A stretch of DNA of 64,000 bases from assembly GCA_036925085.1 (NCBI GenBank), contig JAUPFP010000033.1:666501-730500 (forward strand), given 5' to 3'. Positions 12,857-15,900 of this stretch are shown one piece after another. The DNA is from Brachycybe producta. Taxonomy: Eukaryota > Arthropoda > Diplopoda > Playtdesmida > Andrognathidae. The position numbers and the translations under genes were made by a program. The stretch's first letter is position 1; each line of letters begins with the position of its first letter. The notes under the pieces are model-generated. The model was not told where the DNA came from. It saw only the letters and a list, made by a program, of their open reading frames with translations, and did not search any database.

Positions 12857-12982
12857 TTAAAAGTCGGCGAATTCTTTTGCACATTTTTCCGTCGTCGAAA
12901 TGCGAAGGGCTTCCTCCTCGTAGTCATCAAAATTACTTGTGTCTCCGGGACCTTTACATTTAGGGATGAATGGTGCTTCCAC
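12857..12982 (-). CDS. Pka-C1: PKA-C last exon, canonical
   Basis: 41 codons plus TAA, acceptor AATTCTAG. Encodes [22 protein letters not shown], the turn-motif Ser (RIST) and the terminal hydrophobic motif EFADF. In the known structure FDDY contacts ATP and the terminal FxxF packs on the N-lobe. Confidence 0.96.
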
Positions 12983-15900
12983 CTAGAATTATTGCAAAAT
13001 AATAATTTAACAAAAAAAAAAATAAAACCACAAAATTCCTAATTTTCAACACTTTAAAATCAATATTAAGAGGCTACATCGCAAAATTACTTTGAAAAAT
13101 CTTCACAAAGAGCACTAGCATCGTGTTTATATCGAACCCATAGACCCGATGTTAAAAAATAAACGTTAATTCGCGATTTTGAAATACTTTTTAAAAATAG
13201 AAGGACACTTGCCAATTTTTTTGTCAATTATATCACTAGATCATCATATATTTAAGGTGCACATTGCATTTTGAAAAATGAAAATTGGACAACTTTAAAT
13301 ATGAAAAATAAACATATTGCCGTCGCGACTGTGTATTTTAAAAATTAAAGTTTCTTCTTTAACATCGGGTCTGTGGGTTCAATAGAAAAGCGATGATAGT
13401 GTCCTTTGTGGAGGTTTTTTAAAGTATTTTTGCGATGTAGCCTCTTAAGATAGTCATAATTGCAGCGCTGTCACAGCTTAAACCATTGAATTTACGCTCG
13501 CAAGCATTCAAGGTACGACACGAGGACTCGCAAGAAGAAAAAAAAGCCACACTCGAGTTGTTCGTACACGCATAATGCAACATAGAAAGTATGATTAATT
13601 ATACCAAGCAACATTTTTTGTTGTCAGATAAATGAAACCATAATTTGTAGACAAAACTACGCTGAACTTGGTTGGCATCATCAAATGCACACGAACACAC
13701 ACACGCAGGTCAAGCACAAGTATAAAAGCAACTTGATTTGTGCTTTAAGAAAACTTGAATAAGCTAAGTAGCATTGTCAAAAAACGAACAAACCACACAT
13801 TTGCTATTAAGAAATGTTAAGCTCTGGTTATGTCGATGTGTCAACGGTACTGAAAACGTTAAGCCTGCTTCCGCCGCTTTAAGCTAGATTCTCGTACTTT
13901 GTACGGCTTTATTCTAATTAAAAAATAAAGGGATCTATCTGGAGCCTGCGTATTATGACATATATCGACACTCCTATCGGAATAAGTACTGCCGTGTAAT
14001 AAGCCTCATTGATTGCTACAGGAGTGTTCAGACTAGACACCGTCACCTGTTTTGCTCCACAGAGTTGATGATTGTTCGTGTTCTGCGACGAGTCGTGAGA
14101 ACACACTCCACCCCAATGATAAGGTCATAACAGTGGAATATACGTACAACCTTCCATTGTTTTCAAAGGTCATCTATATATGAAGCACACTCGCGTCTAC
14201 CACTATGCGGTGACACAAAGTGGCGACACAAGAGTGTCCCGTTTGATGCGGACCTTAGTGGCAATTAGTGACGTAATAAGAAATTGTGGTAAATAATGGA
14301 TGGAACTCAACAGAAGCGACAGAATAAGCGCCAAATTACACAAACGCCCAACCTGAATAACTGCCACATTTTTGGCTTTTATTGAGTTTGGCGTTTGCTC
14401 AATTTGGCGACTATTTAGTTGCTTCAGATAATGGCACTGCCATTTAAAACTCATTCATAGTTCAAAGCCATCTGGCGTCACATTTCTTAATGTTCGTAGC
14501 ACCATAAAACACATCCACATAACCAGAGCATAAAAGAGGCTAGAGCTAATGCCATCCCCAAAAAAGCAGCACGAAATATAAAACTGCCAACAACTCGTCA
14601 CTTAATGATTAATTCATAAGGCGCCAAGAGTGAAATGAAAATGTTAACTTAATTTCAGCCAATGCTCGTTAGTTGGCTCCATTAAATTTAAGAAGCAATA
14701 ATAAAGAAACAAAGAAAAGGAGAAGCCACTTTCAAGGAAGAGGCGGAAAAAAAAATGAGAAGAAGACGAAGAAGAAGAAGAAATTCGTGCAAGAAAAGTG
14801 AAAAACTAAAAATACTAATTAATATAAGTAACCTTTTTTGATCCGTAAGAAAACAAAGAGCATGCAATAAGAGGTTGAGTGAGAGTGGTTTTTTTTTTGG
14901 TTTTAGTTTAAAAGTCTTTAAATTCTTTTGGAAACAGATCATCGAGATGTACTTTAAAGATGTTTTTGTTCTCTTCGTACGGCTCGAACTGTCTCGTGTC
15001 TCCGGCATGAGAGATCTTTGGAACCAATGGTGGTTCGGCCTTTATATTTACAATACGCACACATGCAGGAAAATCATAAAAAAAATGAAAAACAAAGGTT
15101 GTTAGAAATAAAAAAGGTAAGGGTTAGAACAGTTCGTACGTGCAAACTAAAAAAGACTGAAAATCGTGCAAATTAAAAGACTGAAACAGTAAAATGGTTA
15201 GAGGCAACTACGAGATTGAAGGAAAACAAAACAAGATGAATCGAATAGTGAATTTTTGCTATTTACAGATAACCGATATCTGATTTTATTTTTCTGGCTG
15301 ATAATAGATAGCCGTTCGGATAAATTCCATCTAATATCAACTAATTTAGTAATTTGTGATATTTATTACAATATAACCTATTATGTATTGGAAGTTTTCA
15401 CGTCAAATCAAGGTTTTCAGTATTGGGAGAAAGAAATTGCCAAAAAAAAAAACAGCTTCAAAAATTCACTGGACGCTAACCGGAAGAGCGGAAATGTTAG
15501 GTGCAATACATTCCCAGTGAAGTGTGCAAGACAAGCGTGTCTTCAATTCCTGAGTGCAATGCACGCCTCAAAAGTTACACCATTTCAGAGTGGGCGTCGT
15601 TGAGATTTATCTAAATATGCTTATGAGCCTAATCAATTATTATAATTAAATTACTTTTGCAAAAACCCGTGAAAAAACTCGCATTAAAATGAAGATATTT
15701 ACATCACCAAGTTCACACCAACACACCCTCAAAATGTTCGTCATAGTATTTACCCAAATTTCTCATTCATTGTCTTAATTATAAAGGGAAATATAAGTGT
15801 CAGAATAGGAAGACAAAATTTGAGAAAATATTCAGGCCTTATATCCGATCCGACATCCTAAAAAAACTATCAGATAATCCGAAATTACGGATTTCCGTGT

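Follow-up and report, generated by a model that had tools for sequence, protein, structure and literature searches.

C-terminal splice variants of Caenorhabditis elegans kin-1 were reportedly described in 1990 (Gross) and in 1999 (Tabish), and PKA-C isoforms are said to have been found in the tick Amblyomma hebraeum (Tabish et al., 2006). For vertebrates, the exon lengths of human PKA-C provide the reference for exons 2–10. In the portion of PMC3771449 devoted to kin-1, this single PKA-C gene is thought to be alternatively spliced at the C-terminus as well as at the N-terminus; an earlier interpretation of our locus made from the letters of the DNA (the sequence-only reading) had also named kin-1 as a case of 3′ variants. 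The resemblance to kin-1 lies in this description of one gene spliced at both ends. Similarly, a passage of the review PMC7517725 lists the tick PKA-C isoforms as potential alternative splicing in ticks; the likeness is that of PKA-C isoforms in an arthropod.

Vertebrate PRKACA and PRKACB share with our locus the architecture of exons 2–10, and the lengths and phases of these exons are given in sections of PMC3625193 as conserved from chordates to Daphnia pulex. Another statement in the same source assigns the coding segment of arthropod homologues to a single exon. The human genes differ from the locus presented here in that their variants derive from 5′ exons or internal skipping, and those sections describe no alternative last exon. 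Among decapods, Table 2 of PMC12608923 reports shrimp PKA-C1 at 89.8% to crab PKA-C1 and crayfish at 99.2%. The shrimp value could fit a different tail; the accompanying text argues against C-terminal differences between the isoforms of a single decapod species. Finally, PRKX/PKA-C3 has a 43-residue tail with PP.VP, GDT, F..Y, EN and a final FxxF, much like the tail discussed below. However, it is a separate gene, its last intron lies two codons further downstream, and it carries a Ser/Thr near the turn-motif position where our tail has none.

The window, that is the whole 64-kb stretch of DNA analysed, contains on its minus strand a gene which tblastn with a human PRKACA query identifies as a PKA catalytic subunit of the PKA-C1 type. 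Its exons are given here in window coordinates.

32635..32696, minus strand: exon 2, 62 nt
32374..32502, minus strand: exon 3, 129 nt
25946..26044, minus strand: exon 4, 99 nt
17688..17770, minus strand: exon 5, 83 nt; acceptor AAATAAAG/G, similar to the 10a acceptor
17424..17550, minus strand: exon 6, 127 nt
17111..17206, minus strand: exon 7, 96 nt
16914..17036, minus strand: exon 8, 123 nt
15954..16118, minus strand: exon 9, 165 nt; donor common to 10a and 10b
14908..15039, minus strand: candidate alternative last exon 10a, 132 nt including the stop (43 amino acids plus stop), placed by frame and homology
12857..12982, minus strand: canonical last exon 10b, 126 nt including the stop (41 amino acids plus stop), with turn-motif Ser, FxxF and Pfam Pkinase_C

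Exons 2–9 have vertebrate-like lengths and join into a single frame. The tblastn pieces over exons 4–9 are 69–97% identical to human PRKACA, some of them running a few residues into introns, and exon 10b reaches 78%; the piece over exons 2–3 shows only 44% because it spans the intron. An exon 1 encoding an MGN-type N-terminus (MGNxxxxK) was not found among eight ATG-GGN candidates in 32697–64000 and may lie outside the window. The genome-wide search with the full isoform (295.3 Mb, 442 contigs) returned 138 matches from the best 119 of 210 candidates. Ten of these matches had at least 75% identity, nine in the PKA-C gene itself and one in a PRKX exon on contig C26; a second PKA-C1 copy was not found among these best 119 of 210 candidates in the 295.3 Mb. 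Searches of viral and prokaryote contigs with the full-length 10a isoform gave 26 and 19 pattern matches, respectively, none of which was confirmed.

On the minus strand, 653–1252 and 4178–4513 match an ARM repeat (6e-26) and a UBA domain (5e-7) and probably belong to a deubiquitinase gene of the USP24/USP9X type. Two direct repeats, identical over at least 300 nt (41325–41624 and 43678–43977), enclose gag-like and RT-like ORFs; the whole looks like a young LTR retrotransposon, with Pfam matches below cut-off only. By eye, 18978–19277 on the minus strand is a LINE-like 3′ fragment, its Pfam match being weak and unrelated-looking, and a longer, related LINE-like frame sits near the PRKX tail exon at locus L010. 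A long TA-rich low-complexity stretch (33693–34673) surrounds an N run, the window containing 100 N in total. Elsewhere in the assembly, the mitochondrial contig C442 (15,359 bases) carries COX1, and invertebrate code 5 yields long frames which by eye are the usual mitochondrial genes. By eye, too, this COX1 resembles that of arthropods, in keeping with the arthropod named in the sequence-only reading; a tRNA scan of this contig found none. COX1-like copies at C1:12697416–12698753 and C17:4027703–4029047 are probably nuclear mitochondrial insertions.

The central observation concerns the 3′ end of the kinase gene. The sequence-only reading had placed a 132-nt exon at 14908–15039, upstream of the canonical last exon and in matching phase, and this is what we find: exon 9, ending at 15954, can be joined to 10a or to 10b in phase 0 for both. 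The two tails share 16 identities over 43 alignment columns. The 10a tail keeps PxxP, GDT, F18, Y21 and the final FxxF, and thus the features of an AGC-kinase C-tail: PxxP, the FxxY at the active site and the terminal FxxF. F18 and Y21 occupy identical positions in both tails and FxxF ends both, so that the spacing proposed earlier for the Phe-Tyr pair (FEPY for FDDY) and the terminal motif is borne out. S10 and T15 are the sole Ser/Thr of 10a, and its last 28 residues have neither. Since no Ser/Thr follows T15 in the 43 residues, the turn-motif phosphorylation site is gone, again as had been read. The accompanying idea that 10a has lost most of its tail acids was mistaken, with 9 Asp/Glu in 43 residues against 10 in 41 for 10b; Lys/Arg number 6 and 5, respectively.

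Several comparisons indicate that 10a is related to the canonical tail beyond chance. A human PKA-C query finds it in the window by tblastn at E 2e-5. Among the frames of the window it is the second-best match to the canonical tail, with a score of 75 against 222 for 10b itself and 34 for the next frame, and the best score in 40 random windows, 45, stays below it. The global score to 10b, also 75, was reached by none of 5000 shuffled peptides. With phmmer, the 10a tail matched 57 PDB sequences at E up to 10, and all except one of them bear the name of PKA or of a fusion with it. The top match, at E 0.0049, profits from an expression tag that happens to resemble the query; PKA Cα chains of the usual kind lie at about 0.02. 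Pfam, on the other hand, reports no family for the 10a tail alone at E up to 10, PF00433 (Pkinase_C) included, whereas 10b matches Pkinase_C at 22.2 bits with a cut-off of 20.9.

Exon 10a could also be related to 10b as a copy of exon 10 that has decayed or is seldom used and serves no function today. The weak-looking acceptor, the modest identity to 10b and the missing Pfam match are in keeping with such a relic, which we nevertheless consider improbable. When the drift of 10b to 16/41 identity was simulated, an open frame with six tail-motif residues survived in 5 of 20,000 runs with AT-rich composition and in 10 of 20,000 with flat composition; the six residues are those of PxxP, F..Y and FxxF, known tail motifs, on a list fixed with the knowledge that 10a retains them. 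Coding composition points the same way. Exon 10a scores 13.5 bits in the right frame and −0.5 and 1.5 in the others, and equally high values occur in 12 of 17,233 overlapping intronic windows, or 9 of the 1,014 open ones, these windows not being independent. Per nucleotide, 10a is as exon-like as 10b (0.105 and 0.106 bits), the model having been trained on exons 2–9 plus 10b. Composition is a blunt test because the training exons include 10b and exon 5 itself scores below zero. The long AG-free zone that precedes 10a also speaks against a relic. The features of this splice context are the following.

15040..15146, minus strand: 10a acceptor AG with the preceding 105 AG-free bases; CTAAC branch-like sites at −66 and −88
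15062..15067, minus strand: TGCATG (RBFOX-type motif) upstream of 10a, its first base 28 nt upstream
14861..14866, minus strand: TGCATG (RBFOX-type motif) downstream of 10a, its first base 42 nt downstream

Of the 989 AGs within the span of the gene, 0.9% follow an AG exclusion zone of 105 nt or more; the zone measures 122 nt for exon 9 and 25–63 nt for the remaining eight exons. Immediately before the AG, the 10a acceptor looks weak, but an A-rich AAG acceptor also serves exon 5. Taken together, homology, frame, splice-site context, composition and motif retention give good support to 10a as a real, constrained alternative last exon, and it is probably functional.

UGCAUG, the RBFOX binding site, lies as TGCATG within 60 nt on each side of 10a, and the other nine exons all lack it in the 150 nt around them. 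Placing a 132-nt exon along the minus strand of the window gives TGCATG within 60 nt on both sides in 8 of 8858 placements, all eight being the 10a pair, and a Markov model gives about 1e-4 for the two flanks together; these figures are indicative only, because we chose the motif with the sequence already in view. The window as a whole holds 12 copies of TGCATG on its minus strand and 5 on its plus strand. The genome contains an RBFOX-like gene, seen with an RRM query as two RRM pieces of 83% and 88% identity on contig C97. The Fox-1_C model matched nowhere, including in 14 controls, and this null result is uninformative because the controls also gave nothing. That the pair surrounds no exon but 10a suggests regulated exon choice. 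Of the functional, regulated tail swap proposed by the sequence-only reading, the constrained alternative last exon thus stands on good grounds, while regulation is suggested by the motif pair.

Transcription into 10a might instead serve mainly to reduce PKA-C output, the product being an unstable or inactive kinase or a message with a transposon-bearing 3′ UTR, so that the exon would act as a regulatory brake. The 10a tail does lack the turn-motif residue, tails are required for stability and activity according to a part of PMC3415842, and the stretch downstream of 10a holds a repeat element.

13063..13451, no strand assigned: dispersed MITE-like inverted-repeat element lying between the two last exons, with 109-nt arms that are 85% complementary

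By eye, TTAA borders this element at both edges. A genome search lists 140 further matching pieces, mostly 81–94% identical, one of them its own opposite arm. Past 10a, at 13806–14533, there is a second, imperfect set of inverted arms, possibly another small transposon. The interval from 10a to 10b holds two AATAAA sites, by our estimate about the chance level for such AT-rich sequence, and a search of the 557 nt that follow 10b found no such site. Against a brake stands the retention of PxxP, F..Y and FxxF, which points to a tail that still docks, and we consider this explanation improbable, like that of a relic.

The origin of 10a can be approached through PRKX. The PRKX tail exon of this genome (C26, loci L010 and L044) opens at PP, and the exon before it ends in KKLQ, followed by a phase-0 GT donor; the gene is called PRKX because its tail resembles the human PRKX tail (score 110). 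Exon 10a starts at the PKA-C intron position, two codons before the start of the PRKX tail exon. Because this position is of the PKA-C type, the best interpretation is that 10a arose long ago by tandem duplication of exon 10 of PKA-C and was not derived from PRKX. It scores 75 against 10b, 74 against the PRKX of its own genome, 72 against human PRKX and 80 against human PRKACA, and these nearly equal distances imply either an old duplication or rapid divergence after it. Near the turn-motif position there is S33 in the genome's PRKX and T28 in human PRKX, and since both PRKX tails examined keep a Ser/Thr nearby, the missing site is a feature of 10a itself and not a PRKX trait. A genome-wide search for further copies of 10a, with E up to 10, gave three matches: the exon itself, the PRKX tail (0.076) and 10b (0.275). 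Acquisition of 10a from the last exon of PRKX/PKA-C3 by exon shuffling or gene conversion, for which the equal length of 43 amino acids and slightly more identities (20/45 columns with human PRKX and 19/46 with the genome's own, against 16/43 with 10b) may be cited, was set aside as very improbable, mainly on the intron position and also on scores that do not favour PRKX and on the turn-motif Ser/Thr that PRKX tails hold and 10a lacks.

We therefore return to the preferred reading, in which one gene gives rise to two PKA catalytic subunits through the choice of 10a or 10b, and which we hold with reasonable confidence, including a 10a-tailed kinase that is likely active without depending on turn-motif phosphorylation and a probable control of the RBFOX type. 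Transcription of 10a, activity of its product, RBFOX control and all biochemical consequences we infer from the DNA. Joining exon 9 to 10b would produce the ordinary tail, and joining it to 10a the 43-residue tail. The latter would still carry the anchors by which the tail is tethered (PxxP, the Phe/Tyr pair of the ATP site and the terminal FxxF) and nothing that can be phosphorylated at the turn motif or close to it. The resulting kinase would likely be active, and the docking of its tail, its affinity for nucleotide and its packing in the holoenzyme would not depend on a turn-motif phosphate. The exon choice would probably be tissue-specific and controlled by a putative factor of the RBFOX type that recognises the two UGCAUG copies flanking 10a.

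This proposal can be related to published work. According to PMC3415842, a Phe and a Tyr of the PKA tail contribute to the ATP site, FxxF fastens the tail to helix C, and PKA has two phosphosites, of which Ser338 is one. The FDDY region contributes to a holoenzyme contact in RIβ2C2, according to a passage of PMC12535202. With the anchors kept and the phosphosite missing, the 10a kinase should be set differently for nucleotide and for R subunits. A much bolder version, in which an old RBFOX-controlled swap supplies two kinases, one of them ordinary and the other free of turn-motif phosphorylation and changed in its affinity for ATP or its preference among R subunits, and is common to many arthropods or even to nematodes, appears doubtful to us.

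C-terminal splice variants of PKA-C are already known in C. elegans, and 10a would be a further variant of this kind. Our literature searches found no description of a PKA-C tail exon devoid of the turn motif, which does not prove its absence from print, and short peptide strings from the 10a tail and variants of them had no match in a full-text search of 5.39 million papers. An earlier description of a 10a-like tail in the tick PKA-C work is possible. The C-tail of PKA bears part of the ATP site together with the turn-motif phosphosite. If the preferred reading is true, this natural exchange of tails, with the anchors in place and the phosphosite gone, would lend itself directly to testing the purpose of the phosphate, and it would offer a route to kinase diversification for an animal with one PKA-C1 gene.
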